Assembly (NCBI RefSeq): GCF_024198235.1
Contig: NZ_JAKCFB010000001.1
Location: 62,001-126,000 of the forward strand
Reading direction: 5' to 3'
From: Myxococcus dinghuensis
GTDB taxonomy: Bacteria; Myxococcota; Myxococcia; Myxococcales; Myxococcaceae
Length of the DNA stretch: 64,000 nucleotides
Below the pieces are notes generated by a model. It worked only from the letters and a program-made list of their open reading frames with translations, searched no databases and had not been told where the DNA came from. A program made the translations under genes and the position numbers. Shown one piece after another: positions 22,397 through 64,000 of the stretch (positions within the stretch are counted from its first letter, which is position 1; every line of letters starts with the position of its first letter).

Positions 22397-25300
22397 GTGT
22401 CGTCGAAGAACAGGTCGCAGAAGGCAGGTTTGGCCGAGGTCCGGGGCCAGTTGGCGGCGGTGCTTGCTCGGAGATTGGGAATCGAGTCGCACCGCTTGGA
22501 TGTCCGCGAGCGATTCAGCCTGTACGGCCTGGATTCGCTGAAGGCCACGGGCTTCATCGCCGAGGTCGGGACGCTGCTCGGGCGCGCCTTGTCGCCCACG
22601 CTCGCCTGGGAATACCCCACGCTCGACGCGCTGGCCCGCCACCTCGCGGGTGAGCTGGAGGACACGGCCTCCCGGGGACCGTCTGGGATTGCGCGAGCGG
22701 ACGAGCCCATCGCCATCGTCGGCCTCTCCTGCCGCTTCCCGCGCGCGCCCGACCCGGCCGCGTTCTGGCGCCTGCTCGTCGAGGGAACGGACGCCATCTC
22801 CGAGGTGCCCGCGGACCGGTGGGACGTCGACCGCGTCTACGACCGGGACGCCTCCGCCCCGGGCAAGAGCATCTCCCGCTGGGGGGGATACCTGGGACCG
22901 GTGGATGGGTTCGACCCGCTCTTCTTCGGAATCTCTCCGAACGAGGCGCTCCACATGGACCCGCAGCAGCGGCTGCTGTTGGAGCTGACGTGGGAGGCCC
23001 TGGAGGACGCGGGCATTCCGGCGGAGCGCCTGCAGGGCTCACCCACGGCGGTCTGCTTCGGCGCGGTGTGGATGGAGCACGAGATGATGCTGCAGCGCTT
23101 CGGCCTGCGGCGCATGTCCTCGTATACCCTGACGGGGTACCACCACAGCGTGCTCGCCAACCGGGTCTCCTATTTCCTGGGGCTGCGGGGGCCGAGCTTC
23201 TCGATTGATTCGGCGTGCTCGTCCTCGCTCACTGCGGTGCACCTCGCCTGCGAGAGCCTCCGTCGAGGGGAGTCGACGCTCGCGCTGGTGGGGGGCGTGA
23301 ACCTGATGCTCGGGGCGGAGAGCCAGGTGGCCCTCTCGAAGCTTGGGGCGCTCTCCCCGGATGGGCGTTGCCACGCGTTCGACGCGCGCGCCAACGGCTT
23401 CGTGCGGGGCGAGGGCGCCGGCGTGGTGGTGCTCAAGCCCCTCTCCCGCGCACTCGCGGACGGGGACGCCCTCTACTGCGTCATCCGGGGCAGCGCCATC
23501 AACAACAACGGAGGCAGCAACGGCCTCACCGCGCCCAACCCCAAGGCCCAGGCAGAGGTCATCCGACAGGCCTGCGAACGCGCGGGCGTCGAGCCGTCCT
23601 CCGTGCAGTACGTGGAGACGCACGGCACGGGGACCCAGCTCGGGGACCCGCTGGAGGCCCAGGCCCTGGGCGCGGTGCTCGGTGCGGGACGGTCCCCGGA
23701 GGCGCCGCTGCGCATCGGTTCGTGCAAGACGAACATCGGCCACCTGGAGGCCGCGGCGGGCATCGCGGGGCTCATCAAGACCGCGCTCGCGCTCCACCAC
23801 CGGACGCTCCCGCCGAGCCTCCACTTCGAGACCCCCAATCCGCTCATCCCCTTCGAGGCGCTGGGGCTCGCGGTCCACCGCACCCTGGGCGATTGGCCCG
23901 CACCCGAGGAGCGGCTCGTCGCCGGGGTCAGCTCGTTCGGCTTCGGCGGCGCCAACTGCCACGTCGTGATGGAGGAGGCGCGGGGGCCCGAGGCACGTCT
24001 CGCCCACCTCTCCGGGGAGACGGAGGAGGCGCTGAAGGACGAGGCCCGGCGGCTGCTCGCGCGCGCCGCGGAGGGGGCACACGCGCCGCTGGACACGCTG
24101 CTGCGCTCCACCCACGAAGGAGGCGACGCGCACGCACATCGCCTGGCCCTGACGGTCCGGACGCGGAAGGACCTTCTCGCGGGCGTCGAGAGCTTCCTGG
24201 CGGGAGAGACCCGCGCCGGCGTGTCCTCCGGTCGGGGCGAGGCGGGAACGCCGCCGAGGCCGGTGTTCGTCTACTCGGGGCACGGGTGCCACTGGCCGTG
24301 CATGGGGCTGTCGCTGCTGCGCACCGAGCCCGTGTTCCAGGCGACGCTCTCGCGCTGCGACCGGTTCATCCAGGAGACACTGGGGTGGTCGCTGCTGGAG
24401 GTGCTGGGGGCCGAGGATGCCTCGGCCCGGCTGGGGCGCATCGACGTCGCCCTGGCCTCGGTCGTGGCGATGGAGCTGGCCCTGACCGAGCTGTGGCGCT
24501 CGTGGGGCGTCGAGCCCGTCGCCGTCGTGGGCCACAGCATCGGTGAGGTGTCGGCGGCCCACGCCGCGGGCATCCTCGAGCTGGAGGACGCGCTCCGCGT
24601 GGTCTGCGCCCAGGGGCGGCTGCTGCGCACGCTGAGCGGGCAGGGGGGGCTGGCCGTCGTGGGGGTCCCCTGGGCCGAGGCCGCCGCGTTGTTGGTGGGG
24701 TACGAGGGGCGGCTGTTCCGGGCCATCGACTCGGGCGCGGACTCGACGGTGTTGTCGGGGGACGTCGACGCGCTGGAGGCGGTGCTCGCGACGTTGCAGC
24801 CGCGCGGCGTGTTCTGCCGCCGGGTGGAGATCGACGTCGCGGTGCACAGCCCCCGGATGGAGGTGCTGGGCGAGGCGCTGCGCGACGCCTTGAAGGACCT
24901 GCGCCCCCGCGCGGCGCGTGTCCCGATGCTCTCCTCCATCACCGGCGGCGTGCTCGACGGCGCGAGCGCGGACGCCTCGCACTGGGTGCGGAACATCGCG
25001 TGGCCCACGCTCTTCACCGGCGCGCTCTCCCACGCCATCCAAGAAGGGCACTCGCTCTTCCTGGAGGTCAGTCCGCACGCGATCCTGCGGCACCCCATCG
25101 ACGTGACGCTCCGCCACCTCGGACGACAGGGGACGGTGCTCGCCTCCCTGCGGCGAAACGAGGACGAGCGGGGCGCGCTGCTCGACACGCTCGGCGCGCT
25201 GTACACGCGGGGGTTGCCCCTCCCGAACGACGCACGCTCCTCCTCGGGGGATGGGGAGCGGGTCCGTCTGCTGCCTTTGTCTGCTCGGAGCCCGGAGGCG

Positions 25301-28300
25301 CTCAGGGCCTTGGCGAAGGACTGGCGTGACTTCCTGGTGGAGGGCGCCGTCGAGGGTTCGGGGCTCGGTGACGTCACCTACACGGCGGCCGTGCGCCGGG
25401 CACATCTCCCTCACCGGCTGTCGGTGGTGGGCGGCTCGCGGCGGGAGCTGGTGGAGTCGCTGGAGGCGTTCTCGCGGGGCGAGCTCTCGCCGGGCGTCAG
25501 CCAGGGGCAGGTGCGGACCGAGGGGCGGGCGAAGGTGGCCTTCGTCTTCCCGGGGCAAGGCTCCCAGTGGCTGGGCATGGGGCGGCAGCTCCTGGCCGAG
25601 GAGCCGGTGTTCCGGTCGGCCATCGAGGCGTGCGAGCGGGCCATGCGCCCGTATGTGAGCTGGTCGCTCACGGGGGAGCTGCTCGCGGACGAGGCGCGCT
25701 CGCGCCTGGCCGACATCGACGTCGTCCAGCCCGTGCTCTTCGCCGTGCAGGTGGCGCTGGCGGCCCTGTGGCGCTCGTGGGGTATCAATCCGGACGCGGT
25801 GGTGGGGCACAGCATGGGCGAGGTCGCCGCCGCGCACGTCGCGGGCTCGCTGAGCCTGGAGGATGCCTGCCGTGTCATCTGCCGACGCAGCCAGTTGTTG
25901 CGCCGCAAGAGCGGGCAGGGGGCCATGGCCGTGGTGGAGCTGGGCCTGGCGCAGGCGCGCGAGGCGTTGGCGGGCTTCGAGCACGGGCTGTCCGTCGCCG
26001 TCAGCAACAGCGCGCGCTCCACGGTGCTCTCCGGAGACACCGAGGCCCTGGAGACGCTGCTTGCGCGGCTCGAGGGCCAGGGCACCTTCTGCCGTCGGGT
26101 GAAGGTGAACGTCGCCTCCCACAGCCCTCAGATGGACGAACTGAAGGAGGACCTCCTGCGGGTGCTCGAGGGCCTCGAGCCCCGGAGCGCCACGGTCCCC
26201 ATCTACTCCACGGTGACGGGGCAGACGTGTGATGGGGCGGACTTCCATCCGGCCTACTGGGTTCGCAACCTGCGTGAGCCGGTGCTCTTCCATGGCGCCG
26301 TGGAGCGCCTCTTCGAGGACGGCATCACGGTCCTCGTCGAGCTGAGCCCCCACCCGGTGCTGCTCGCGCCCATCGAGGAGACCCTGCGCGAGTCGGGGCA
26401 AGAGGCCCTCGCGCTCGCGTCGCTGCGGCGACAGACCCCGGAGCGGCGCTGCCTGCTCGAGTCCCTGGCGGCGCTCGACGCCTGGGGCTGCCCGGTGGAC
26501 TGGGCGTCGCTCCACCCCGACGGGGGGCGCGTGGTCGCGCTGCCTCGCTATCCGTGGCAGCGCGAGCGGTTCTGGCTGCCGGACGAGGTCGCGGTCCAGC
26601 CCGGAGGCGACGTGCGCGCCTCCGCGCGACGGGGGCACCCGCTCATCGGCGAAGGGCTCTCGTCCTCGGTCCAGCCGGGGACCCACTTCTGGGAGCGGAG
26701 CGTGGGGGTGGAGGCGTTCCCGTACCTGGCCGACCACCGTGTCTGGGAGGACGTCGTCTTCCCGGGCGCCGGCTATGTGGAGATGGCCCTGGCCGCGGGC
26801 GCGGAGGTGCTGGGGGAGACGGGGCTCGTGCTCGAGGACGTCGCGCTCAGCGAGATGCTCGTGCTCGGACCCGGGGCGCCGACACGCGTCCAGGTGGTGG
26901 TGAGCGAGGAGTCACCGGAGCGCGCCACCTTCCACATCGCCAGCCGGGCGGAAGGGGACACCTCCTGGCGGAAGCACGCCTCGGGCACCGTGCTGCGCGA
27001 GGCGCGGGAGGGCGTGGCCGCGGCGTGTGAGTCCCCCGAGTCGCTGCGGGCGCGGGGGCACGTGGTGGTCTCCGGCGAGTCGCACTACCAGCGCCGTCGC
27101 GCGCAGGGCCTGATGTATGGCGCCGCCTTCCAGGGGCTGCGCGACCTCTGGCGGGGCGAGCGCGAGGCGCTGGGGCGCCTGGAGCTGCCCGAGGCGGTCT
27201 CGCTGGAGGCGGGGGCGTACCGCGTCCACCCCGCGCTGCTGGATGCCGGCCTGCAGGTGGCGGTGGAGCTGGTGGCGCCACTGTCGGGGGCCCCCGACCC
27301 GGCGACGTACGTCCCGGTGGGGATGGCGCGTGTCCGCTTCCACCAGCGCCCCGGGCGCGCGACGTGGGCGCGGATGCGGGTGCACGGGGACGGCGAGGCG
27401 AACGAGCGGGAGCGCTCCTTCGACTTCTGGCTCCTCGACGAGCAGGGGCAGGTGCTGCTGGAGGTCGAGGCGCTGCGCCTGTACCGGTTGGATGCGGGCG
27501 CCGCGCTCCGAGGCGAACTCGGGACCTGGCTCTACCAGGTGGACTGGGAGGCGCAGCCGCTCCCGGCACAGCTCCCCTGGCCCGAGCGCACGCCGGGGAG
27601 CTGGCTGATTCTCCGCGACAGCCTCGGCGTGGGGCAGCGACTGGCCATGCGGCTGCGGGAGCTAGGGGAGACGTGTGTGCTCGTCTCGCCCGGGGAGCGG
27701 TACCGGTTCACCGGGCCCGCGAGCGCGGAGGTCGACCCGGGACGCGCCGAGCATTGGCGACGCCTGCTCTCGGACACGCTGGGCGCCGGGAGGCCGCCCT
27801 GCCGGGGCGTGGTGCACCTGTGGAGCCTGGATGCCGCGTCGACCGAGGCCCTCACGCCCCAGGGCTTGGAGGACGCGCGACGGTGCGGGACGACCAGCGT
27901 GCTGCACCTCGTGCAGGCCCTCGCTGGCGCTGGATGGCGCGACGCTCCCCGCCTCTGGCTGGTGACGCGGGGGGCCCGCGCCGTCGACACGACACCCGAG
28001 CCGGTCGCCGTGGCCCAGGCTCCGCTCTGGGGCATGGGGCAGGTGGTGGCGGTGGAGCACCCCGAGCTGCGCTGCACCCGCGTGGACCTCGAGGGGGCGC
28101 CGGAGGTCGCGGGTGAGGCGCTCCTGCGGGAGCTGTCGTCGACGGTGTTCGAGGACCAGACGGCGTGGCGTGGGGGCACGCGTCGGGTGGCGCGCCTGGC
28201 TCGGGCGGCGGAGGCCCTCTCCTCCCGGGCGCCCGCGCCTCCGCTCCGCGCGGAGGGCACGTACCTCGTCACCGGAGGGCTGGGGGGGCTGGGGCTCGAA

Positions 28301-29448
28301 CTGGCGCGCTGGCTGGTGTCCCAGGGAGCACGTCACCTCCTGTTGCTGGGGCGGAGCGCTCCCTCGGCCGAGGCGGAGCAGGTGCTCGCGTCGCTTCGCG
28401 AGGTGGGGGTCCACGTCGAGTCGCTCGGCGCGGACGTGGCGCGCGCGGAGGACGTGGCGCGGGCGCTGGCCCACGTGGACCAGACGATGCCTCCGTTGCG
28501 CGGGGTGTTCCACGCGGCGGGTTCGCTCGATGACGGACTGCTGCTCAACCTCACGGAGGAGCGCTTCGCGACGGTGATGGCGCCCAAGGTCCTGGGGACC
28601 TGGAACCTCCATGTCCAGACCCGTCACCTGTCCCTGGACCACTTCGTGCTGTTCTCCAGCGTGGCCGCGTCGCTCGGCACGCCGGGGCAGGCGAACTACG
28701 CGGCGGCGAACGCGTTCATGGACGCGCTGGCCCAGGCGCGCGCGGCGGAGGGGCTGCCCGCGTTGAGCGTCAACTGGGGGGCCTGGGCGCGCGTGGGGCT
28801 CGCGGCGGCGCGAGCGAACCGGGGAGAGCGCCTGGAAGCCAGGGGCCTGGGGAGCATGGCACCGGACAAGGCGCTGGCGGCGCTCGGTCTGCTGCTGGGC
28901 CAGTCACGTCCGCAGCTCGCGGTCATGGCCTTCGAGCCGAGGCAGTGGCTGGGGTTCTACCTGTCCGCGGCGCAGTCCCCGTACTTCACGCGGTTGGCGA
29001 GTGAGTCCACCCAGCGGCCCGCCACGGGCTCGGGGCGGGGGCGGATCCGCGAGCAGCTCGAGGCCGCACGTCCGCCCGAGCGTCGCGGGCTGCTCGACAC
29101 GCACCTGCGGGAGTTGATCGGCGGCGTGCTCCGCATGGCGCCCGCGCGCATCGACCCGCGCACGCCGTTGATGGCGTTCGGGCTGGACTCGTTGATGAGC
29201 ATGGAGATTCGCAACCGCCTGGAGGTGGCGCTCGGCTTGAAGCTGAGCGCGACGGTGGTGTGGACCTACCCGACGGTGGCCGCGCTCGCGCCCTTCCTGG
29301 CGGAGAAGCTGGCGCTCCCGCTCGACGAGCGCACCCCGGAGCCCGTGCCCGAGAGCGCCGCGCCGCCGGGCGCGCCCGCGGGAGACATCGACGCGCTGTC
29401 GGAAGAAGACGTCGAGCGGCTGTTCGCCCAGCGCATGGAGCAGGGGTC

Positions 29449-29452
<4 letters not shown>
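22397..29452 (+). CDS. mxaF: Type I PKS: starter unit and module 1 (ACP-KS-AT-AT-DH-KR-ACP), myxalamid-type
   Basis: A 2351-aa synthase that loads the starter and adds the first extender. Domains (residues): ACP ~15-90 (GLDSL, Ser47); KS ~102-528 (Cys274 in DSACSSS); AT1 ~622-930 (GHSIGE, Ser714); AT2 ~1045-1340 (GHSMGE, Ser1139; VASH, methylmalonyl-type); DH ~1413-1700 (His1447, Asp1616 in HPALLDAGLQ); KR ~1950-2140 (GGLGGLG, LDD, Tyr2101, B-type); ACP (Ser2265); helical docking tail. AT1 has Gln739 where extender ATs keep the carboxylate-binding Arg, so it should load a monocarboxylic starter such as isobutyryl or 2-methylbutyryl. Expected product of the module: a methyl-branched E-alkene thioester. 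Start: GTG 22397 with AGAGG 5 nt upstream is preferred; GTG 22322 abuts the palindrome. The letter F is assigned by position in the mxa scheme. The last codons overlap the next gene by 4 nt. Confidence 0.88.
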
Positions 29453-35034
<5,582 letters not shown>

Positions 35035-35048
35035 AGCGGACGGGTGCG

Positions 35049-38000
35049 ATGAGCAAGGAATTCTACGAGAAGATTTCGGGTCTCTCTCCCAAGCGGCTCG
35101 CGTTGCTGGCGCTCGACCTCCACGCGGAGAGCGAGGCCCTCAAGCGCACGCGTTCGGAGCCGATCGCCATCGTCGGCACGTCCTGCCGCGTCCCGGGAGG
35201 CGTCCGGACCCCCGAGGCCTTCTGGCGGCTGCTGCATGACGGCGTGGACGCCATCACCGAGGTCCCACGTGAGCGATGGGACGCGGAGGCCCTCTTCGAT
35301 CCCGAGCCGGGCAAGCCCGGCCGCACGTACGCCCGCTGGGGCGGCTTCATCGAAGGCGTGGACCTGTTCGACGCGGCGTTCTTCGGAGTCTCCCCTCGGG
35401 AGGCCTCGCGGATGGACCCGCAGCAGCGGCTGTTGCTGGAGGTGACGTGGGAGGCGCTGGAGCGCGCCGGTCATCCCCCGGACCAGCTCATGGGCAGCCG
35501 GTCCGGCGTCTTCCTGGGCATCATCCACAGCGACTATGCGCAGCTCCAGGCGCGGCAGCTCGGCGAGGCGCTCGACATCTACCACCTGACGGGGACGTCG
35601 CTGAACGCGGCGGCGGGGCGGCTGGCGTACACCCTGGGACTCCAGGGGCCGTGCATGGCCATCGACACGGCGTGTTCGTCCTCCCTGGTGGGCTTGCACG
35701 TCGCCTGTCAGAGCCTGCGCAACCGCGAGTGCGACCTCGCGCTGTCGGCGGGCGTCAACCTCATGTTGATGCCGGAGGCGACGATGGCGCTCTCCAGCAG
35801 CCGAGGGCTCGCGCCGGATGGGCGGTGCAAGACGTTCGACGCGGCGGCCAACGGCTTCGTGCGCGCCGAGGGCTGCATCGTCCTCGTGCTCAAGCGCCTC
35901 TCGGACGCGCTCGCCCATGGTGACGAGATCCTCTCCCTGGTCGTCGGCTCCGCGGTGAACCAGGACGGCGCCAGCAGCGGCCTCATGGTCCCCAACGGCC
36001 CCGCACAGGAGCGGGTCATCGAGCAGGCGCTGGCGAACGCGGGCATCAAGCCTTCCCAGCTCTCCTACGTGGAGGCCCACGGGACGGGGACCTCGCTGGG
36101 GGACCCCATCGAGATGCAGGCCCTGGCGCGGGTGCTGGGTGGGAAGCGGAACGCGGACGCGCCGCTGTTCGTGGGGTCGGTGAAGACGAACATCGGGCAC
36201 CTGGAGGCGACGGCCGGCCTCGCGGGTGTCCTGAAGACGGCGCTGGCGCTGCGGCGGGAAGCGATACCTCCGAACCTGCACTTCCACCGCCTGAACCCCG
36301 ACATCGTCCTCGAGGGCGCGCCCGTGGTGGTGCCGACGTCGCCGCAACCGTGGCCCCGGGCCGAGCAGCCGCGCCTGGCCGGGGTGAGTGCGTTCGGCAT
36401 CAGCGGCACCAACGCCCACGTCATCCTCCAGGAGCCTCCCGCACCGGCGCCCCGACCTCCGACGCCCAGCCGGGGGGCGGAGCTGCTCGTGTTGTCCGCG
36501 CGAGGACCCGAGGCGCTCCGGGCCTCGGCCGGAAACCACGCGTCGTGGCTCGCCGCGCATCCCGAGGTGCCCCTGGGGGACGTGTGTGCCACCGCGAGCC
36601 TGTCGCGCTCGCACCACGACCACCGCTTGACGCTCGTGGGCCACACCCACGCCGAGCTCGCGGAGAAGCTGGAGGCGTTCTCCCGAGGCGAGAGCGTCCC
36701 GGGCGCGGCCACGGGGCGTGCATCCGGACATGCCCGGCGCCGGGTCGTCTTCGTGTTCCCCGGACAGGGCTCCCAGTGGTTCGGCATGGGCCGGAGGCTC
36801 CTGGAGCAGGAGCCCGCGTTCCGCGCCGCGTTGGAGCGCTGCGACGGCGCCATCCGCGCCTGCGCCGACTTCAGCGTCCTGGAGGAGCTCCAGGCGGAGG
36901 AGGGGCGCGGCCGTCTCCAGGACATCGACGTCATCCAGCCGGTGCTCTTCGCCATGGAGGTCGCGCTGGCGGAGCTGTGGCGGGCGTGGGGCGTCGAGCC
37001 CGACGCGGTGGTGGGTCACAGCATGGGCGAGGTCGCCGCGGCGCACGTCGCCGGGGCGCTGAGCCTGGAGGACGCGGCGAAGGTCATCTGCCGACGCAGC
37101 CGGCTGCTGCGCGGTGTCCGCGGCCAGGGGGCCATGCTGCTGGTGGACCTGACGCTGGACGACGCGACGCAGGCGCTGGCGGGCTTCGAGGCCCAGGTCT
37201 CCGTCGCGGTGAGCAACAGCGTGCGCTCCACCGTGCTCTCGGGCGGGAAGGACGCGCTGGACGCCATCGCCGCGCGGCTCCAGGAGCGCGACGTCTTCTG
37301 CCGCTTCGTGAAGGTGGATGTGGCGTCACACAGCCCGCGGATGGACCCGCTCCGACCCGAGCTGCTCGCGGCGCTCCAGGACCTCGCGCCGCGTGTGTCC
37401 CAGGTCCCCATCTACTCCACGGTGACGGGCCTCACGACCCGCGGCGCGGAGTTCGTCGGCGCCTACTGGGCGGACAACCTGCGCGAGCCGGTGCTGTTCT
37501 CCAAGGCCGTCGAGCGGCTCGCGGCGGACGGGCATGACACCTTCATCGAGCTGAGCCCGCATCCCATCCTCCTCCCCGCCGTGGAGCAGCACCTGCGGCA
37601 CCTGGGACGCGAGGGCGCGGTGCTGTCATCGCTCCGCCGCGAGGAGGACGAGCGGGGCGCGATGTTGTCCGCGCTGGGGGCCCTCTATGCCATGGGGCAC
37701 GACGTGGACCTGGAGCGGCAGCACCCGGTGCGCGGGCGGCTCGCCGCGCTGCCCACGTACCCCTGGCAGCACGAGCGCTTCTGGATTGACGCACCCACGC
37801 GGGCGCGCAAGGGGCGGGACACGGGACACCACCCGCTCCTGGGGACACATGTCGCCCTGGCCGGCCAGGACGGCGCGCACCTGTGGCAGACCGAGCTGTT
37901 CGCGGACAGCCCCGCGTACCTGTCCGACCACGTCGTCCACGAGCAGGTCGTCCTCCCTGGGACCGGCTATCTGGAGATGGCGGTCGCCGCGTCTGCCCAG

Positions 38001-40622
38001 GCCTTCGGGCCGGGAGGCCACGCGCTCGAGGACGTCATCTTCCAGCAGATGATGGTGCTGTCCCGGGAAGAGGCGCTCCCGGTGCAGGTGCGCTTCTTCC
38101 CGGAGGAGGACGGCGCGAAGCGCTTCCAGGTGTTCAGTCGTCCGGCGGAGTCGCGTGGCGCCTGGACGTTGCATGCCGAGGGCAGGCTCCGGGAACACGC
38201 GTCCGCCGCCGAGCCCTTCGCGCTCGAGGAGGCACGCGCGCGGTGCCCGGAGCGGTTGGAGGGGGCGCTGCACTACCAGGGCATGCGCGAGCGCGGTGTC
38301 GACTTCGGCCCCAGCTTCCGACTCGTGACGGAGCTGTGGAAGGGCGAAGGGGAGGCGGTGGCGCGCCTGGAACCGTCACCCTCCGTCGCCTCGGAGCTGG
38401 CGGTGCACCGGCTCCACCCCGCGCTGCTGGATGCCTGCTTCCAGGCCATCAACGGGGCGGGGCTGGGCGACCGACGCAAGGAGACCTTCGTGCCGGTGGC
38501 CGTGGAGTCCTTGCGACTCCACGGGAGTCCCGCCGCCGCGACGTGGAGCCATGCCCGCGTCCGCCCCAGCGCGAGCGAAGGGACAGGTTCCATCGAAGCG
38601 GATGTGACACTGCTGGACGCGGATGGGGGTGTCCTGCTGGAGGTCCGGGGGCTGATGGCGCGCCGGCTCGACGCGGTCCGCCGCCGCACCGCCGACGAGG
38701 TGGACGACTGGTTGTATCGCGTCGACTGGCAGGAGGCCGCGCGCGAGGCGCCAGCGCCTTCCCACTCCGCGCCAGGCACCTGGCTGGTGTTGACCGACGG
38801 GGGCGGCTTCGGCGAACGGCTGAAGGCGGCGCTGGCCGCCCGAGGCGAGCGCTGCGTCCTCGTGTCCCACGGCGAGGAGACGCGCCTCGTCGCGCCCGGT
38901 CACCACGGAGTCGACCCTTCGGCGGCTGAGGGATTCGCGCGGATTCTCGAGGCCGAGTTCGGCGCCGGTCGTCCCGCGTGCCGGGGCGTCGTCCACCTCT
39001 TCAGCCTGGACGCGCCCGTCGCGGATGAAGGGGCGGAGGCCCTGACGACGGCTCGGGAGTTGGGCGTGGAGAGCGCGCTGCACCTCACGCAGGCGCTGGT
39101 GGCCTCGGGCTTCCGGGACATGCCCCAGGTGTGGCTGGTGACGCAGGGGGCCCAGGCCGTCGCGCCCGGGGAGCGCCTGGAGCACGTCGAGCAGGCCCCG
39201 CTCTGGGGACTGGGGCGGGTGTTGGCGCTGGAGCACCCGGAGCTCCGGTGTCGGAGCGTGGACCTGGGGGCTCGGGACGAGGCCCAGGCCGTCGCCCTGG
39301 CGGGAGAGCTCCTCTCCGCGAGCCTGGAGGAGCAGGTCGCGCTTCGTGGCGAGACCCGACTCGTCGCGCGACTGTCGCGGCTGGAGCGGAGCCTCGTATC
39401 CGGCGTGGCGCCACGGGCCGATGGCACCTACCTGATTGCAGGGGGGCTCGGGGGGCTGGGCTTGAAGCTCGCGGAGTGGCTCGTCGAGCAGGGCGCGCGG
39501 CACCTCGTCCTCCTGGGGCGCAAGGGCGCGAGCGCGCAGGCGCGGCCCGTGCTCGAGGCGCTGCGCACGGCGGGCGCCGAGGTCCACGTCTTCCAGGCGG
39601 ATGTCTCGGTGCGGGCGGACGTCGAGCGCGTGCTCGGAGAGGTGTCGGCGCGGATGCCTCCGCTGAGGGGGGTCTTCCACGCGGCGGCGGTGCTCGATGA
39701 CGGCGTGCTCGCGAACCTCACCGCCGAGCGTCTGCGGGCGGTCATGGAGCCGAAGGTCCACGGGGCGTGGAACCTCCATGCGTCGACGCGCGAGGCGCCG
39801 CTCGACCACTTCGTGCTCTTCGCGGCGGCGGGCGCGCTCCTCGGGTCGCCGGGGCAAGGCAACTACGCGGCGGCCAATGTCTTCCTCGATGCGCTCGCCG
39901 AACACCGGCGCGCGGCGGGGTTGCCGGCGCTGAGCATCGACTGGGGGGCCTGGGCCGACGTGGGATTGGCCGCCGTCGCCCAGGCTCGGGGGGAGCGCAT
40001 CACCCAGCGAGGCGTGGACGGCATGCCTCCGGCGCAGGCGTTGGACGCGCTGGGCCGCGTCCTGGGCAGTCCCCACCCGCGGGTGGTGGTGATGCGCTTC
40101 GACCTGCGCCAGTGGAGTGAGTTCTACCTCACGGCGGCGCGCTCCCCGTTCCTGTCGCGGCTCGCGCGGGAGCAGGCCGGCCGCGCGCGGACACCCTCGG
40201 ACCGGGGCGCGTTCGTGGAGACCCTCCGCGCCGCGGAGGTGCTCTCACGAGCGCTGTTGCTCGAGAAGCACCTGTGCGAGCAGGCCGGGCAGGTGCTCCG
40301 GCTGTCTCCCTCGCGAATCGACCCGGACGAGCCGCTGGGGAGCATGGGGCTGGACTCCTTGATGGGCCTGGAGATTCGCAACCGGCTCGAGGTGAGTCTG
40401 GGGTTGCGGCTCCCCGCGACCCTGGTCTGGCGCCACCCCACCGTGGCGGCGCTGGTCGTGCACCTGGCCGAGCTGCTGCAACTGCCCATCGCGAACCCGG
40501 GCGAGTCACCCCGGAATGAAGTCGCGGCGCCCGACGCCGCCATCGTCAACCACGTCAAGCAGCTCTCGGACGACGAAGCCGAGGCGCTCCTCGCGGCGAA
40601 GCTCGCCGCGCTGGCCGATTGA
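35049..40622 (+). CDS. mxaD: Type I PKS module 3 (KS-AT-DH-KR-ACP), myxalamid-type
   Basis: An 1857-aa single module. N-terminal docking helix LSPKRLALLALDLHAESEAL; KS Cys209; AT Ser658 with VASH (methylmalonyl); DH His961 in HVVHEQVVLP (Glu replaces the usual Gly, as in module 1) and Asp1128; KR with LDD and Tyr1606 (B-type, E-alkene after dehydration); ACP GLDSL Ser1770; C-terminal docking helix KQLSDDEAEALLAAKLAALA. The predicted product, a methyl-branched E double bond (C10=C11 in myxalamid), fits. It starts 14 nt after the previous gene with only a weak ribosome site (GGACGGG), so translational coupling is likely. Confidence 0.92.
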   Translation: MSKEFYEKISGLSPKRLALLALDLHAESEALKRTRSEPIAIVGTSCRVPGGVRTPEAFWRLLHDGVDAITEVPRERWDAEALFDPEPGKPGRTYARWGGFIEGVDLFDAAFFGVSPREASRMDPQQRLLLEVTWEALERAGHPPDQLMGSRSGVFLGIIHSDYAQLQARQLGEALDIYHLTGTSLNAAAGRLAYTLGLQGPCMAIDTACSSSLVGLHVACQSLRNRECDLALSAGVNLMLMPEATMALSSSRGLAPDGRCKTFDAAANGFVRAEGCIVLVLKRLSDALAHGDEILSLVVGSAVNQDGASSGLMVPNGPAQERVIEQALANAGIKPSQLSYVEAHGTGTSLGDPIEMQALARVLGGKRNADAPLFVGSVKTNIGHLEATAGLAGVLKTALALRREAIPPNLHFHRLNPDIVLEGAPVVVPTSPQPWPRAEQPRLAGVSAFGISGTNAHVILQEPPAPAPRPPTPSRGAELLVLSARGPEALRASAGNHASWLAAHPEVPLGDVCATASLSRSHHDHRLTLVGHTHAELAEKLEAFSRGESVPGAATGRASGHARRRVVFVFPGQGSQWFGMGRRLLEQEPAFRAALERCDGAIRACADFSVLEELQAEEGRGRLQDIDVIQPVLFAMEVALAELWRAWGVEPDAVVGHSMGEVAAAHVAGALSLEDAAKVICRRSRLLRGVRGQGAMLLVDLTLDDATQALAGFEAQVSVAVSNSVRSTVLSGGKDALDAIAARLQERDVFCRFVKVDVASHSPRMDPLRPELLAALQDLAPRVSQVPIYSTVTGLTTRGAEFVGAYWADNLREPVLFSKAVERLAADGHDTFIELSPHPILLPAVEQHLRHLGREGAVLSSLRREEDERGAMLSALGALYAMGHDVDLERQHPVRGRLAALPTYPWQHERFWIDAPTRARKGRDTGHHPLLGTHVALAGQDGAHLWQTELFADSPAYLSDHVVHEQVVLPGTGYLEMAVAASAQAFGPGGHALEDVIFQQMMVLSREEALPVQVRFFPEEDGAKRFQVFSRPAESRGAWTLHAEGRLREHASAAEPFALEEARARCPERLEGALHYQGMRERGVDFGPSFRLVTELWKGEGEAVARLEPSPSVASELAVHRLHPALLDACFQAINGAGLGDRRKETFVPVAVESLRLHGSPAAATWSHARVRPSASEGTGSIEADVTLLDADGGVLLEVRGLMARRLDAVRRRTADEVDDWLYRVDWQEAAREAPAPSHSAPGTWLVLTDGGGFGERLKAALAARGERCVLVSHGEETRLVAPGHHGVDPSAAEGFARILEAEFGAGRPACRGVVHLFSLDAPVADEGAEALTTARELGVESALHLTQALVASGFRDMPQVWLVTQGAQAVAPGERLEHVEQAPLWGLGRVLALEHPELRCRSVDLGARDEAQAVALAGELLSASLEEQVALRGETRLVARLSRLERSLVSGVAPRADGTYLIAGGLGGLGLKLAEWLVEQGARHLVLLGRKGASAQARPVLEALRTAGAEVHVFQADVSVRADVERVLGEVSARMPPLRGVFHAAAVLDDGVLANLTAERLRAVMEPKVHGAWNLHASTREAPLDHFVLFAAAGALLGSPGQGNYAAANVFLDALAEHRRAAGLPALSIDWGAWADVGLAAVAQARGERITQRGVDGMPPAQALDALGRVLGSPHPRVVVMRFDLRQWSEFYLTAARSPFLSRLAREQAGRARTPSDRGAFVETLRAAEVLSRALLLEKHLCEQAGQVLRLSPSRIDPDEPLGSMGLDSLMGLEIRNRLEVSLGLRLPATLVWRHPTVAALVVHLAELLQLPIANPGESPRNEVAAPDAAIVNHVKQLSDDEAEALLAAKLAALAD

Positions 40623-40634
40623 AGGGTGTCCTCC

Positions 40635-56155
<15,521 letters not shown>

Positions 56156-56159
<4 letters not shown>

Positions 56160-59100
56160 GTACACCCCCCAAGGCCGCGGAACCCACCGCGTTGCAGCGC
56201 GCCGCGCTGCTCGTCGAGAAGCTGCAAGCCCGCCTCGAGTCCGTGGAGCGCGCGCGGAGCGAGCCCATCGCGGTCATCGGCCTCGGTTGTCGCTTCCCCG
56301 GCGGCGCCGTCGACGGAGCCTCGTACTGGCGCATGCTGCGCGACGGCGTGGACGCGCTGCGCGAGGTGCCCGCGTCGCGGTGGGACATGCGCAAGTACTT
56401 CGACCCGACCCGAGGTGCGCCGGGGAAGATGTATGGGACGCGCGGCGGATACCTCGAGGGGCTGGAGCACTTCGACGCGGAGTTCTTCGGCATCTCTCCC
56501 CGGGAGGCCGCGAGCCTGGATCCGCAGCAGCGGCTGGCGCTGGAGGTCGCCTGGGAGGCGCTGGAGGACGCGGGGGTGGACCCCGCGCAGTTGGTGGGCA
56601 GCAGGACCGGCGTCTTCATGGGCGTGATGTCCAGTGACTACCTGGCGCGCCTGCTCAAGGACGGAGATGCCACCCGCTTCGACGGGTACATGGCGACCGG
56701 CAATGGCTTCTGCTTCGTCCCGGGGCGCATCTCGTACGTGCTCGGCTTGCAGGGCCCGAGCATTCCGGTGGACACCGCGTGCTCGTCCTCGCTGGTGGCG
56801 CTCCACCTGGCCTGTGAGAGCCTGCGCCGCGGGGAGTCCCACCTCGCGCTGGCGGGTGGGGTCAACCTCATCCTCTCCCCGGAGACGACGCTGTGCCTGT
56901 GCAGCATGCAGGCGTTGGCGAGCGATGGCCGCTGCAAGACGTTCGACGCGGCGGCCGACGGGTATGTGCGCGGCGAGGGCTGCGGCGTGCTCGTCCTCAA
57001 GCGGCTCTCGGACGCGCAGCGGGACGGGGACACTCCCCTCGCGTTGATTCGCGGCTCGGCCGTCAACCATGACGGGGCGAGTGGTGGGTTGACCGTCCCC
57101 AACGGCCCCTCGCAGCAGGCCGTCGTGGCGACCGCGCTGGAGAACGCGCGGGTGGCGCCAGGCCTCGTCAGCTACGTCGAGGCGCACGGCACGGGGACGC
57201 CGCTCGGCGACCCGATAGAGCTGCGCGCCCTGGGCGCGGTGCTGGGCAAGGGGCGGGCGGAGGACCGGCCGTTCTTCGTCGGCTCGGTGAAGACGAACAT
57301 CGGTCACCTGGAGCCCGCCGCGGGCGTCGCCGGCGTCATCAAGACGATTCTCGCCCTCCGGCACCGGGAGATTCCGCCGCACCTGCACTTCCAGACGCCG
57401 AATCCCCACATCGACTGGGGGGACATCCCGGCGCGTGTCCCCGTCGAGCGGCACCCCTGGCCCGCGTACGAGGGCCGGCGCATCGCCGGGGTGAGCTCGT
57501 TCGGCTTGAGCGGCACCAACGCGCACGTGGTGCTGGAGGAGGCGCCCGCCGCCGTCCAGCCCGTGACCCCGGTCGAGGACGGCGAGGCCCGCCTCGTCGT
57601 CCTGTCCGCGAAGACGGCGCCGGCGCTGGTCGACACGGCGAAGGCCTGGGTGGCGCATCTGGAGCGTGAGGACACGGGGACGCTCGCGGAGCTCGGCTAC
57701 ACGGCCGCGCGTTGCCGCACGCGTCACGACCACCGGCTCGCGTTCGCGGCGAAGTCCAGGGAGGAGCTCGCCGCGGGGCTGGAGGCCTTCGTCTCGGGGG
57801 AGGGCCACGGGGCCCTGGCGGTGGGACGCCGGAGCAACAGCCAGAAGGTGGTCTTCGTCTTCCCGGGCCAGGGCTCCCAGTGGCTCGGGATGGGGCGACA
57901 GCTCTACGCCCGGGACGCGACGTTCCGGGAGGCCATCGACCGGTGCCACGAGGCGCTCGGTCGTCACACGGACTGGTCGCTGCGCGAGCTGTTGACGGGC
58001 CCCGACACTCCGCCGCGCTGGGGGGACATCGACGTCATCCAGCCGATGTTGTTCGCCTTGCAGGTGGCGCTCGCCGCCCTGTGGCGCTCGCTGGGGTTGG
58101 AGCCGCACGCGGTGGTGGGGCACAGCATGGGCGAGGTGGCCGCGGCGCACGTCGCGGGGGCGCTCTCGCTGGAGGACGCCGCGCGCATCATCTGCGAGCG
58201 CAGCAAGCTGCTCCGGCGCGTCAGCGGCAAGGGCGCCATGGCGGTCGTGGACCTGTCGCGCGAGCAGGCGGGAGAAGAGCTCCGGGGGCTGGAGGACCGG
58301 ATCGCCATCGCCGTCTCCAACAGCCCGAAGGCGACGGTGCTGTCGGGGGACCCGGCCGCGCTCCGGGAGGTGCTGGCGCGGCTCGAGCAACGAGACGTCT
58401 TCTGCCGTTGGGTGAAGGTGGACGTGGCCTCGCACAGTCCGCAGATGGACCCCTTGCGGCAGGACCTGCTGGCGCGGATGGAGGGGCTGCGCCCCGTCGC
58501 GAGCACCGTGCCGCTGTACTCGACGGTGACGGGGGCACCCATCGACGGGCGTGAGCTGGGCGCCGCGTACTGGGTGCGCAACCTCCGGCAGCCCGTGCTG
58601 TTCGCGGACGCGGTCCAACGCCTCGTGAAGGATGGGAACATCCTGTTCATCGAGTTGAGCCCGCATCCCATCCTGGTGCCCTTCGTGGACGCGATGTTGA
58701 GGGAGGCGGACGCGTCGGGTCGTGGCCTGGTGGTCCCGAGCCTGCTCCGGGAGCAGGAGGAGTGGCCGTGCCTGCTCGCATCGCTCGGCGCGCTGTCCAC
58801 GCGGGTGGACCGCATCGACTGGCTCCGGCTGTATCCCGGCCCGCAGCACCGGGTCGCCCTGCCGGCGTATCCCTGGCAGCGCGAGCGGCATTGGCTGGAG
58901 GCGCGCTCCTCCGGTGGCGCGCGCGGGCGTGTCACGAGAGAGGGGGATGACGGTCATCCCTTGTTGGGAGCCTCGTTCACGACCTCCGTTCCGCAGGCGC
59001 TGCGCTTCTGGGAGTCCACGCTGAGCGCGGCCGAGCCGGCGTACCTGGCGGACCATCGCGTCGCGGGCTCGGTGGTCGTTCCGGGAGCGGCCTCCCTGGA

Positions 59101-62100
59101 GATGGCGCTGTCCGCGGCTCGTGAGCTGTCGGGTGGGCGCGCGCACGAACTGACGGAGGTCTCCTTCGCGGAGGGCCTGGTGCTGCCGGAGGGCCAGTCG
59201 CGCACGGTCCAGGTCTCGCTGCGGGGTGGGGAGTCCGGAGGTCTCGCGTTCCGGCTCTCGAGCCAGGTGGTGGGCGCGGACACGGGCGCGCCCACGCGAT
59301 GGCTGACGCACGTCGAGGGGAGGCTCCAGCCGCGCGGGGAGGACACTTCGCGTCCTCCCCCGGAGTCGCTCGAGGCCATTCGCGAGCGCTGCGCCGAGGG
59401 GCTCACCCAGGCGGCGCACTACGAGACGCTGGCGCGAAACGGGGTGGTGTATGGGCCGGCGTTCCAGGGGGTCCAACAGGTCTGGCGGGGCCGGGGAGAG
59501 GCGTTGGGCCACGTCCGGTTGCCACCGTCACTCCTCGCCCGGTCGTCGGAGTACCTCATCCACCCCGCGCTGCTCGACGCCTGCTTCCAGCTCGTGTCCG
59601 CGGCGGTGTCCCGCGAGGACATCGACCCCGTCGCGGGGCCGGCGGTCCCGGTCGCGCTCTCGCGGCTGCGGCTGCATGCGTCACCCGGCGCGGAGGCCTT
59701 CTGCCACGTGCGACTGAGACCCCTCCTGGGGCCCCAGCGAGGCGTCCGGGAGTTCGACCTGGTGATGCTCGACGCGGAGGGGCGGCCCGTGCTGGAGGCC
59801 CTCGGGCTGCGGCTCCAGCAACTGGACGCCGCGGTCGGAGACGAGGCGGGCAAGGGCCTCTACTTCGCGCACGAGTGGCGCCACACGCCCGACGTCCGAC
59901 AGCTCCCTCCCGCGGGCGCGGAGGCGGGGGGGCGGTGGTTGCTCGTGGCGGACGAAGGCCCCCTGGCCGACGCGGTGGTGTCGCGGCTGCGGGAGCGCCA
60001 TGGCGAAGTCACGCGCATCTGCCTGTCGGACCTGGAGCGTGGCACGGGGGAGGGGGCCTCTCCCCTCGACCTCGAGGCCGTGCTGGCCAGGGTGTTCAGC
60101 GAGGGCGCGGTCCCTCGCGGCGTGATTCACCTGACGGGGGACAGGCCACGAGACGTGGACCCGTGGGTGGACTGCGGTGGGCTGCTGCACCTCGTGCAGA
60201 CGCTGACGCGCCGTGCGTTCGCGAACCCGCCCAGGTTGTGGCTCGTCACGCGGGGACTCCAGCACGGGGCGGAAGCGGGCTCGACCTCCGACCTGTGGCA
60301 GGCGCCACTGTGGGGCGTGGGGCGCACGGTCGCGCAGGAGCACGCCGACCTGAAATGCACGCGGGTGGATGTGTCCGCCGCGCTCGGCTTCGAGGACGCC
60401 GGTGAGGCGTTGCTGCGCGAGCTGCTCCTGGCGGACGCGGAGGAGGAGGTCTCCTTGCGCGGCGATGGGCGCCACGTCGGACGCATCGTCCGGGGCGCGC
60501 CGGGCAGACCGGTCAGCGAGGCCGTCGTCCCCGTGGGAGCGCATGCCTACCAGGTGGTGCGCGACGCCAGCGGACGTCTGGAGTATCGGGCGAGCGACCG
60601 TCGCCCGCCGGGGCCGGGGGAGCTCGAGCTGGCGGTCGACGTCGCCGCGCGAGCCCGCCCGGGTGGGGTGACACGCTCGGAGGGATGGGACGTCGCTGGC
60701 GCGATGGCCTGCGCCGGCCGCGTCGTGGCCGTGGGCGAGGGCGTCCAGGGCGTCGAAGTGGGCGAGGCGCGCATCGCCATGACGACCTCCGGGCTCGCGT
60801 CGCACCTGTGCGTGCCCGTGGGGGACACCGTCGTCCGCCCGCCCTCGTCCTCACCCGGGGGGGCCGCGTCGCTGGTCGCGACGGTGCTGCCGGCCTGGTA
60901 CGCCGTGTTCCACCTGGGGCGCGTCGGGCCGCGAACACGGGTGCTCGTCCTCGGGGGTTCGAGCGGGCTCGGGCGCGCGGTCATCGAGCTGTCCAAGCGC
61001 GCGGAGGCGGAGGTCTTCGCCGTGGCCACCACGGACGCGGAGCGCGCCCTCCTCCTCTCGATGGGGGTGGCCCATGTCCTGGCGCCAGGGGATGGCGTGT
61101 CCACCACGGCGCTCCTCGCGCTGACGGGAGGACGCGGGGTGGAGCTGGCCATCGTCGCTCCCGGGGCCACCGTCCCCGAAGCGAGTCTCGGCGGGCTGGC
61201 GGAGGGAGCCCGGGTCCTCGACCTGCGCACGGACGCGGAGCCCCGGACCCCGGTGGACCCGAACGTCGCCTGGTGCGTCGTCGATGTCTACGCCCTCGCG
61301 CGGCGTGCCCCCGAGCGCTTCGCCCGGCTCTGGCAGGAGGTGCGGGAGGCCTCCGAGGCGGGACCCCCCGCGTCCACCGCGTCGGCGGTGGACACGCTCG
61401 CGCTGAGCCCTCCGGACGTGGGGCGCGTGGTGGTGCAGGCGACAGGGGCGCGACGCCTGCGCGCGAACGGGACGTACCTCATCACGGGAGGGCTCGGAGG
61501 GCTGGGCTTCGCCGTCGCGAAGTGGATGGCGGAGCAGGGCGCGGGACACCTCGTGCTCCTGGGCCGTGACACCTCGCTGACGCCCTCCCAGCAGACGGAC
61601 ATCGCCGCGCTCGAGGCCTCCGGGACGAGGGTGCGGGTCGTCGGCGTGGACGTGTCCGACCGCGCGGCCCTGGCTCGGGTGCTCACGGAGGTGGCCCGGG
61701 CCGATGCCCCGCTGCGTGGGGTCATCCACGCGGCGGGTGTGTTGGACGACGGCTTGTTGTCGCAGCAGACGGTGGAGCGCTTCCGGCGCGTGATGGCGCC
61801 CAAGGTGCAGGGAGGTTGGAACCTCCATGTCCTGACGCGGGAGGCTCCGCTCGACTTCTTCGTGCTGTACTCGTCGGCGGCCTCCTTCTTCGGCGCGGCG
61901 GGGCAGGGCAACTACGTGGCGGCCAATGCCTTCCTCGATGCGCTGGCCCACCACCGGCGCAGGCTCGGGCTGCCCGGGACGAGCATCAACTGGGGGCCCT
62001 TCTCCGAGGTCGGCCTGGCCGCCGCCCAGTCCAACCGGGGTGCGCGTCTGGCTCAGCGCGGCTCGGACAGCCTCACGCCCTCCGAGGGCAACACCATCCT

Positions 62101-62629
62101 GGGGCGTCTGTTGGACGGGGAGGTCACGCAGCTCGCCGTCATGCTGCTCGACCTGGGCAAGTGGGTGGAGTTCCATCCGCGTGCGCGGTCCACACCCTGG
62201 CTGGCGGACCTGGTTCCCGCGGGGACGGCGGGGAGCGCCCCGGCTTCGAGGGACGAGGCGTTGCTGGAGACGCTCCGGACGGCGACCCCGCGAGACGCGC
62301 GGCTGGCCCTGGAGAAGTTCGTCCGCGAGCAGCTCGGACGGGTCCTGCGCCTCGACACCGCGCGCATCGACGTGGAGGCCCCGCTCCAGGGGCTGGGGCT
62401 CGACTCCCTGATGGGCTTGGAGTTGCGCAACCGGCTGGCGTCCGGGTTGGGGCTGTCGCTCCCCGCGTCGCTCATCTGGAAGCACCCGACCCTGGATGCG
62501 CTCTGTCTGCATCTCCAGGGCGAGGTCCTGGACCGCGCGCTGGCAGAGACGCTTGCGCCCCCCTCCGTGGGCGCCGCACCCGTGGTGGAGGACTCCTCCG
62601 CCCACGACAACGAGGTCATCGTCCTATGA
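56156..62629 (+). CDS. mxaB: Type I PKS module 7 (KS-AT-DH-degenerate ER-KR-ACP), myxalamid-type
   Basis: A 2157-aa last PKS module. KS Cys209; AT Ser657 with VASH (methylmalonyl, giving the 2-methyl branch); DH His967 in HRVAGSVVVP and Asp1141; an ER-like region ~1458-1740; KR with LDD and Tyr1920 (B-type); ACP Ser2084. The ER keeps a nucleotide-binding-like LGGSSGLGRAV (canonical HAAAGGVG) but has lost the NFRD stretch near its start, so it is probably inactive, in agreement with the C2=C3 double bond of myxalamid. The protein ends with an acidic/hydrophobic tail, SSAHDNEVIVL, of the kind bound by TubC-type docking domains, and the next gene begins with such a domain. ATG lies in the preceding stop (ATGA), GAAGG just upstream. 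The Stigmatella counterpart may be split; here it is one gene. Confidence 0.9.
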
Positions 62630-64000
62630 GTATTCGGGAGCTGTTGGGCAACCTCGCGGCGCGCGGCGTGCGCCTGCGGGCGGAGGGCGACCGGCTGGTG
62701 GTCGAGGCGGGCAAGGCCGTCCTGACGGCGGAGCTGCGGACCGCGCTCGTGACGAACAAGGCGGACATCCTCGCGTTCCTCCTGAGGCACACCGCGAGCG
62801 CCGGAGGGACGGGCGCGCCCGTGTCGCCGCTCCCGAGGCCGGAGGTCATCCCCTTGTCCAGCGGCCAGGAGCGGCTCTGGTTCCTGGACCGCCTCTCTCC
62901 GGGAACGGCCCAGTACAACGTCCACCTGGGCTTTCGGGTCCACGGCCCGCTCGACGCCTCGGCCTTGCGCTGGAGCCTGGACGCGTTGGTCCGGCGTCAC
63001 GAGATTCTGCGGACCACGTTCCCGGAGGTCGAGGGGAGTCCGCGGCAGGTCATCGCCGCGCCGGAGGTGGGCGCGACCCTGGACGTGGTGGACCTGCCGG
63101 TGCCGGACGTGTCACAGCGGGACGAGGCGCTCCAGCGGTGCTCGGCCACGCTGGCGCGACGTCCCTTCGACCTGTCGAAGGGGCCGCTCCTGCGCGTGAC
63201 GCTCGTCGCGATGGCACCCGAGGATTCCGGCCTCCTCGTGACGATGCACCACATCATGACGGACGGCTGGTCGCTGGGGGTCTTCATCCGGGAGTTGTCG
63301 GCGCTGTACGCGTCACGCGTGCGGGGGCAGGCGGAGGGACTGCCCCCCGTGTCGATGCAGTTCGCGGAGGCGGCGCTGCGCGAGCGGGAGTGGCTGGCGG
63401 GAGAGGAGGGGGCTCGGGAACGGGCGCATTGGAAGACGCGGCTCGAGGGCCTGCCTCCGCTCCAGCTCCCCGTGGACCACGCGGTCTCGGGAGCCACGCA
63501 ACATCGTGGCGAGAGCGTCCCCGTGGTCCTGTCCTCCTCGCTGGTGGAGGGACTCCAGCGGCTGGCCCACCAGGAGGGGTGCAGCCTCTTCATGGTGCTC
63601 CAGGCCGCGTTCGCCGTCTTGTTGCACCGCTACTCGGGGCAGCTCGACTTCGGCGTGGGGACGGTGACGGCGAGCAGGGGAGGCGTCGCGCCGGACCTCA
63701 TCGGCTTCGTCGCCAACACGCTCGTGCTGCGCTGCGAGCTGTCAGGCGACCCGTCCTTCTCGCGGTGGCTGACCCGGGTGCGTGAGACGGTGCTCGACGC
63801 GCAGGACCACCAGTCGCTGCCCTTCAGCGAGGTGGTGAAGGTCGTGGGCGCCTCGCGTGAAGGAGGGCTCAACCCGCTGGTGCGCGCTTGCTTCACGCTG
63901 GAGAACGTCCCGGCGCCCACGCTGGAGTTGCCGGGGGCGCGCTGGTCCTTCTTGAAGGGGGCTCCGGATGGCAGCGTGGAGGGCGTCGCCAAGTTCGAGC
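62626..64000 (+). CDS. mxaA: NRPS, N-terminal docking and condensation domains (partial, runs off window)
   Basis: The first 458 residues of a non-ribosomal peptide synthetase. Residues 1-55 (MSIRELLGNLAARGVRLRAE, then GDRLVVEAGKAV) form a TubC-type beta-hairpin docking domain. From about residue 75 a condensation domain begins (PLSSGQERLWFLDRLSPG), with RRHEILRTTF and the catalytic HHIMTDGWS (His208, His209, Asp213). It would accept the heptaketide acyl chain from the last ACP and condense it with an amino acid, alanine in myxalamid. The adenylation, carrier and release domains lie outside the window; in myxalamid release is reductive to alaninol. ATG overlaps the mxaB stop by 4 nt (ATGA) with GAGGT upstream. 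No in-frame stop occurs before base 64000. Confidence 0.88.
   Translation, partial: MSIRELLGNLAARGVRLRAEGDRLVVEAGKAVLTAELRTALVTNKADILAFLLRHTASAGGTGAPVSPLPRPEVIPLSSGQERLWFLDRLSPGTAQYNVHLGFRVHGPLDASALRWSLDALVRRHEILRTTFPEVEGSPRQVIAAPEVGATLDVVDLPVPDVSQRDEALQRCSATLARRPFDLSKGPLLRVTLVAMAPEDSGLLVTMHHIMTDGWSLGVFIRELSALYASRVRGQAEGLPPVSMQFAEAALREREWLAGEEGARERAHWKTRLEGLPPLQLPVDHAVSGATQHRGESVPVVLSSSLVEGLQRLAHQEGCSLFMVLQAAFAVLLHRYSGQLDFGVGTVTASRGGVAPDLIGFVANTLVLRCELSGDPSFSRWLTRVRETVLDAQDHQSLPFSEVVKVVGASREGGLNPLVRACFTLENVPAPTLELPGARWSFLKGAPDGSVEGVAKFE

Follow-up and report, generated by a model that had tools for sequence, protein, structure and literature searches.

A myxalamid-type gene cluster in Myxococcus dinghuensis with a first polyketide synthase module of probably mosaic origin

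The window, a stretch of 64,000 nucleotides from Myxococcus dinghuensis (G000:C1:62001-126000, in a genome of 10.4 Mb and 124 contigs), contains a polyketide synthase (PKS) leading into a nonribosomal peptide synthetase (NRPS), in a cluster that is a further member of the known myxalamid (mxa) family. Myxalamids form a series of starter variants and are known as antifungal compounds. The first extension module of the PKS appears to be a mosaic, its acyltransferase (AT) and dehydratase (DH) resembling those of module 0 of the phenalamide PKS and its ketoreductase (KR) and acyl carrier protein (ACP) those of phenalamide module 1, and the line likely makes myxalamids, a combined reading that we put at a probability of about 0.88. 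The mosaic goes beyond a preliminary description of this DNA, made from its letters and open frames, which had matched the locus to myxalamid biosynthesis.

In excerpts of PMC11619377, strains of Myxococcus xanthus are described as making myxalamids, which are abolished by deletion of mxan_4530; passages of PMC4902038 likewise report production in M. xanthus and add that myxalamids block mitochondrial complex I. Phenalamide-type compounds are assigned the configuration 12R, 13R, 16S in a portion of PMC13148359, and sections of PMC8307915 and PMC10435759 cite Park 2016 for the description of the phenalamide cluster in Myxococcus stipitatus DSM 14675.

Organization of the cluster

The loading unit and seven PKS modules are encoded by five unbroken open frames on the + strand (22397-62629; Table 1), and the domain calls agree with the preliminary description in placing a starter loading unit and seven extension modules ahead of an NRPS condensation (C) domain. 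Pfam E-values are at most 2e-55 for the ketosynthase (KS) and AT domains, at most 2e-59 for the KRs, and at most 4e-23 for the PS-DH match. With values this low and the full arrangement found again in seven further mxa-type clusters, chance is not a concern. The modules on gene D run KS-AT-DH-KR-ACP, KS-AT-KR-ACP, and KS-AT-DH-KR-ACP. KS, KR, and ACP motifs are present throughout, with the KS of module 6 reading NTACSSS (overlooked by the scripted pattern and recovered by reading) and ACP2 reading GMTSQ. A DH-less module 5, a degenerate enoylreductase (ER) in module 7, and a DH fold in module 2 are features that the preliminary description lacked. An Rfam search of the 64-kb window returned no match.

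Table 1. Positions in the window of the genes, domains, and motifs discussed in the text
Feature	Position	Strand	Basis
Gene A, MxaF-like: loading ACP, KS, loading AT, then module 1 AT-DH-KR-ACP	22397..29452	+	Domain calls, relatives
Loading (starter) AT, GHSIG motif	24263..25213	+	Own clade in AT tree, support 100
Module 1 AT and DH	25541..27502	+	Group with phenalamide module 0
Probable mosaic junction, protein residues ~1700-1707, border of DH and KR regions	27494..27517	+	Sliding identity, alignment
Module 1 KR region and ACP	27518..29290	+	Group with phenalamide module 1
Gene B, module 2, KS-AT-DH-KR-ACP, A-type KR; predicted C12/C13 and 13-OH	29449..35034	+	
DH2: HxxxGxxxxP and DxxxQ present, YGPxF absent	32221..33075	+	
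Gene C, module 3, KS-AT-DH-KR-ACP	35049..40622	+	
Gene D, modules 4, 5, and 6; 5177 amino acids	40626..56159	+	Domain calls; 76-81% identity to seven mxa-type clusters
VPSH motif of AT4	42885..42896	+	11 of 11 clusters
Module 5, KS-AT-KR-ACP, A-type KR, without DH	46173..50636	+	
DH6, with Leu in place of the YGPxF Tyr; candidate for acting on module 5 too	53373..54230	+	
Gene E, module 7, KS-AT-DH-(ER)-KR-ACP	56156..62629	+	
Degenerate ER of module 7	60518..61375	+	LNFIDVM loop gone, Rossmann motif changed
MxaA-like NRPS, C-A-PCP-Red; gene continues to window-equivalent 67158 (L009:12627-17159)	62626..64000	+	

A start of gene A at 22397 is plausible even though the open frame begins at 22322, because the first ACP then lies where it does in five of seven mxa-type relatives, at residue 19-22. 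The module 2 gene starts at 29449, with an ATGA overlap, and not at 29260; the NRPS gene start likewise forms an ATGA overlap.

The AT motifs are VASH in modules 1, 2, 3, and 7, YAFH in module 5, and HAFH in module 6, as previously described, and module 4, for which no motif had been given, carries VPSH. Among the KRs, those of modules 1, 3, 6, and 7 have LDD and that of module 4 has IAD, whereas those of modules 2 and 5 lack LDD and have Trp at -8 from Tyr, which confirms the earlier assignment of types B, A, B, B, A, B, B.

The NRPS (1510 amino acids) is a single module comprising a TubC_N docking domain, C, adenylation (A), and peptidyl carrier protein (PCP) domains, and an NAD_binding_4 reductase (Red). 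It holds neither the additional modules nor the thioesterase that had been named as arguments against a myxalamid synthetase. The reductase matches the NCBIfam thioester reductase TIGR01746 at 419.8 bits (cutoff, 213) and is identical at 305 of 364 positions (83.8%) to the chain named MxaA in PDB 4u7w/4w4t. Besides this terminal reductase, the preliminary description had looked to an alanine adenylation code, and the A domain code, read by eye, is DLFNNALTY, which we take to specify alanine.

Relatives of the cluster

Homologues of the NRPS were sought in 145 genomes of the order Myxococcales, and the 19 listed genomes with a close homologue include 13 (with that of the window) at identities of at least 76%, 5 at 66 to 68%, and G124 at 72% over a partial protein. 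Clusters were read whole in 8 of the 13 genomes of the first, mxa-type group (the window, G120, G121, G105, G081, G103, G047, and G078) and in all 5 of the second, phenalamide-type group (G111, G104, G115, G113, and G116). The first group shares the architecture of the window, although the module 2 gene is interrupted in G047. The second has modules 2 to 7 and the NRPS in common with the window, but two front genes give it eight modules. In G047 (C1, locus L055), the module 2 frame stops inside the DH after 1149 amino acids, the copy being interrupted or misread, and the ER of module 7 is also shortened.

Identities between the window and the seven other mxa-type clusters are 70 to 78% for A, 76 to 80% for B, 78 to 82% for C, 76 to 81% for D, 72 to 76% for E, and 76 to 81% for the NRPS (N); with the five phenalamide-type clusters, they are 64 to 66% for B, 68 to 71% for C, 68 to 70% for D, 65 to 67% for E, and 66 to 68% for N. 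A closer kinship with phenalamide, which had been raised as a case against the compound call, was thus not found (70 to 82% for mxa-type versus 64 to 71% for phenalamide-type clusters from module 2 on). A tree of concatenated C, D, E, and N proteins separates the mxa-type and phenalamide-type groups with support of 100 (8 and 3 clusters). The whole order is the same as in the mxa cluster of Stigmatella aurantiaca (G081). M. xanthus was compared by single proteins, and in strain AM003 (G002) the MxaF-like protein is 78% identical over its whole length and the NRPS 81%.

All the way from loading ACP to reductase, the domains of the window follow the order of the mxa clusters of S. aurantiaca and M. 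xanthus, with the same AT and KR pattern, and a DH-less module 5, a decayed ER7, and VPSH in AT4 are common to all eight mxa-type clusters read. Its differences from them are in sequence only and include Gly-to-Glu changes in DH1 and DH3 and a divergent starter AT. The phenalamide cluster of M. stipitatus DSM 14675 (G113) has modules 2 to 7 and the NRPS in the same order, but with 65 to 69% identity, as opposed to 73 to 82% for the same genes in G121 and G081. In the phenalamide lines, the place of mxa module 1 is taken by two genes, KS-AT-DH-ER-KR-ACP and KS-AT-DH-KR-ACP, and there is no cis loading AT at the front, giving eight modules versus seven in the window. The window lacks the phenalamide hallmarks (eight modules, the first fully reducing and on its own gene) and has those of mxa (a first protein of loading ACP plus KS-AT-AT-DH-KR-ACP, and seven modules in mxa order).

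More distant relatives occur in Sorangium: P0130 (So ce1078) and P0131 (So ce269) are 66% and 63% identical to the three-module protein, and P0045, an NRPS of Sorangium cellulosum, is 60% identical to that of the window, indicating that the line also exists in this genus. Extra ER-type Pfam domains are listed for P0131.

A probably mosaic first module

Compared with the front modules of two phenalamide clusters, module 1 of the window is 74% (AT) and 48 to 54% (DH) identical to module 0, and 68 to 70% (KR) and 61% (ACP) identical to module 1. Trees of seven mxa-type and five phenalamide-type clusters follow this division: mxa module 1 joins phenalamide module 0 by its AT (support, 100) and DH (99) and phenalamide module 1 by its KR (99) and, with one change, its ACP. 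In joint analyses of four mxa-type and three phenalamide-type clusters, AT plus DH group with module 0 (support, 100), and a grouping with module 1 is rejected (approximately unbiased test, P = 0.0002), whereas KR plus ACP group with module 1 (support, 99.5), and a grouping with module 0 is rejected (P = 0.004).

The change from one affinity to the other is abrupt. When three mxa proteins were profiled against five clusters, sliding identity switched at residues 1701 to 1760, and alignment narrows the switch to the border of the DH and KR regions listed in Table 1. The same halves occur in the deep-branching G124, in which the AT-DH half is 66% identical to module 0 of G111 versus 50% to its module 1, and the KR-ACP half is 52% identical to module 0 versus 67% to module 1. 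The stretch that would separate the two halves is contiguous in the phenalamide lines, consisting of the rear of one gene and the start of the next. Lost or gained once, it would convert either front to the other except at the starter end.

The two lines thus likely parted by the gain or loss of one module. We regard it as probable, with less assurance than for the combined reading given at the outset, that they differ by one recombination at the DH/KR border, together with an altered AT specificity in module 4 and a DH6 that serves two modules. The line would have been shortened or lengthened by one fully reduced methylmalonyl unit and its starter swapped, with the 16-methyl kept. Of the two directions we lean toward shortening, in which recombination would have joined the similar DH/KR borders of adjacent modules. 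A search for an outgroup in 195 genomes of the phylum gave no Sorangium-type full-length match beyond the known 19 genomes. The open literature searched contained no account of the mosaic, with the primary papers on the mxa and phenalamide clusters lying outside that search; the mxa cluster is said to have been described in Silakowski 2001.

The protein encoded just upstream of phenalamide module 0 in M. stipitatus (L096:10291-12045, a frame ended by script at the next gene) combines the lipoyl, E3-binding, and acyltransferase domains of a 2-oxoacid dehydrogenase E2 with an ACP at its C terminus. Judged by its domains, it could pass an acyl group derived from a 2-oxo acid directly to the PKS, where it would serve as starter. 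In three phenalamide-type clusters (G113, G111, and G115), frames of about 600 amino acids with an ACP lie just upstream of the front.

Methyl pattern, reduction, and the Z alkene

Myxalamid B has methyls at 2, 10, 12, 14, and 16 and none at the module 4 position, and phenalamide has a 16-methyl and a phenyl at C18. The methyl branches had been derived from the AT domains, module 4 apart. AT type predicts a pattern with methyls from C2, C10, C12, and C14 only in part: the modules with VASH, YAFH, and HAFH agree with it, and the absence of a methyl at module 4 is the part that the domains do not predict. AT4 carries VPSH in 11 of 11 clusters, and this motif occurs in 10 of 620 ATs (from proteins P0121-P0352), every one of them module 4 of the mxa/phenalamide family. 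In the AT tree (42 rows versus 14; support, 99; 7 clusters), AT4 nevertheless lies among the methylmalonyl-type domains, so that its family does not foretell a C8 without a methyl. Fifteen residues and a one-residue insertion are found without variation in AT4 but in none of the 47 methylmalonyl-type ATs compared. AT4 is probably a natural methylmalonyl-to-malonyl switch, a proposal held jointly with those of a single recombination and a two-module DH6.

The 13-alcohol had been placed at module 2. The A-type KR of this module fits, but the catalytic His and Asp of DH2 are intact, and the loss of YGPxF is all that sets this domain apart (11 of 11 clusters). HxxxGxxxxP is retained, and DxxxQ is kept in the 10 readable clusters, G047 being cut there. 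The ER of module 7 lacks the LNFIDVM substrate loop and has an altered Rossmann motif in 11 clusters; the ER of the first phenalamide-type module keeps the motifs that ER7 has lost.

The Z alkene assigned to module 5 agrees with the A-type KR of that module but not with its lack of a DH, and because the DH is missing, that of another module would have to act. Module 5 is DH-less in 11 of 11 clusters and in 10 homologous proteins (P0122-P0131, some from the same clusters and two from Sorangium), and LGHAF or a near form replaces YGPxF in DH6 in 11 of 11. DH6 likely dehydrates the module 5 intermediate in addition to its own. A comparable arrangement occurs in epothilone EpoD of Sorangium cellulosum, where a DH-less module with an A-type KR precedes a DH in which the Tyr of YGPxF is replaced by Trp (P0134 and P0135), and where the DH of the following module reportedly makes the Z alkene of the preceding one. 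Unlike DH6, the EpoD domain belongs to another cluster and product and is of another sequence type (HPxLxDN).

Loss of the YGPxF Tyr found no support on the tree as a general marker of DHs with double duty. Among 158 DHs from 120 proteins and 20 loci (from the top 25 rows outside the mxa/phenalamide family, five having been dropped for short open frames), the Tyr is lost in 29 of 45 DHs whose preceding module has an A-type KR but no DH, versus 17 of 113 others (raw counts), but 10 independent pairs on starred branches gave averages of 0.4 in the same and 0.2 in the opposite direction (median P = 1). In 10 of the 20 loci, a Leu-type DH does come after an A-type module without DH. Counterexamples run both ways: Leu-type DHs follow DH-containing modules in L081 and L082, and 16 DHs after DH-less A-type modules retain the Tyr. 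The proposed double duty of DH6 rests on family anatomy and the work on epothilone, and not on a general marker.

In a second myxobacterial PKS (L074, L076, L083-L088, L090, and L091), too, a module that has an A-type KR and no DH comes before one with a Leu-type DH, and in the latter module the AT is weak or missing. No name for this family was found, the listed names being generic.

Proposed biosynthesis and alternative explanations

Architecture, NRPS, reductase, and identities support the myxalamid call; that the strain makes these compounds is likely, as judged from its genes. The starter, a short and probably branched acyl unit, would be placed on the first ACP by the loading AT. Seven condensations would follow, in which modules 1, 2, 3, and 7 add methylmalonyl and modules 4, 5, and 6 malonyl units, and the A-type KR of module 2 would leave the 13-OH. 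The A-type KR of module 5 would give an L-hydroxy intermediate, which DH6, on the same protein, would most likely dehydrate to the 6Z alkene while also making its own 4E alkene. With ER7 presumably dead, C2=C3 would stay; the NRPS would add alanine, and the reductase would reduce twice to release alaninol. Phenalamide has one fully reduced methylmalonyl extension more than myxalamid, a difference that a single recombination where DH and KR meet would explain.

Several observations weigh against the mosaic and the myxalamid product. Placement of the module 1 KS with phenalamide module 0 has a support of 52, a grouping with module 1 not being rejected (P = 0.41, approximately unbiased test), and the KS, KR, and ACP trees gave long-branch warnings. 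G124 stands with the mxa group in the rooted NRPS tree and is unplaced in the D tree, and either direction of module change may hold. Finally, DH1 and DH3 of the window have Glu where the HxxxGxxxxP motif calls for Gly; among the other 10 clusters, Glu occurs at this position of DH3 in none, and the DH1 position is Ser in G047. A DH1 or DH3 with Glu could be weaker, going by its motif, and the product altered.

These Glu residues bear on the best surviving alternative, that the line is that of myxalamid but the product a new congener. It would also fit the starter AT, the most divergent AT, which is at most 70% identical to the nearest row versus 84% for the extender ATs of modules 1 to 3. Myxalamids already constitute a starter-variant series, however, the catalytic His and Asp of the DHs are present, and acidic residues are also seen at this position in the DHs of phenalamide module 1, P0133, P0138, P0181, P0228, and P0231, so that we consider a new congener unlikely, if well within reach.

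Less probable still is an origin of the mosaic in separate gene conversions or uneven rates of change. The weak KS position, the long-branch warnings, and the two possible directions of change would suit such an origin, but all three mxa proteins profiled switch sharply once and at a shared position, both alternative groupings are rejected, and the deep lineage G124 has the same halves, all of which argues for one recombination.

That module 5, having no DH, leaves a 7-hydroxyl, and that the product is not a myxalamid hexaene, is very improbable, as the same gap occurs in S. aurantiaca and in M. xanthus P0122, from producers of the compound with the Z alkene. The weakest alternative is an eight-module line of the phenalamide type that takes an aromatic starter. 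Such a line has the order and motifs of modules 2 to 7 and the NRPS in common with the window but is contradicted by the seven modules with cis loading ACP and AT, the absence of the two-gene ER-containing front, and identities of 64 to 71% versus 72 to 82% for the same genes in mxa-type clusters.

Neighboring genes

Upstream of the cluster, the window encodes a YcaO cyclodehydratase (37-2202, + strand) adjoining an amidohydrolase (2214-3422), which may belong to a different biosynthetic locus, and an OAA-family lectin with four sugar-binding repeats (PF17882; 5297-6559, - strand). About 11 kb downstream of the NRPS lies a gene for a 585-amino-acid protein with a C-terminal carrier domain (L010:4329-6083, window-equivalent ~78.2-80.0 kb), followed by one for an acyl-CoA dehydrogenase (L010:6533-8653).

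Implications

A cluster of this kind is expected in the Myxococcus group, and it is the comparison with its relatives that is useful. AT4 supplies a conserved candidate residue set for a methylmalonyl-to-malonyl switch, and DH6 is a candidate dehydratase shared by two modules. The junction at the DH/KR border, kept in lines that, going by published accounts, include working producers, marks where a PKS module was joined or split, presumably without loss of activity, and is of interest for chain-length engineering.

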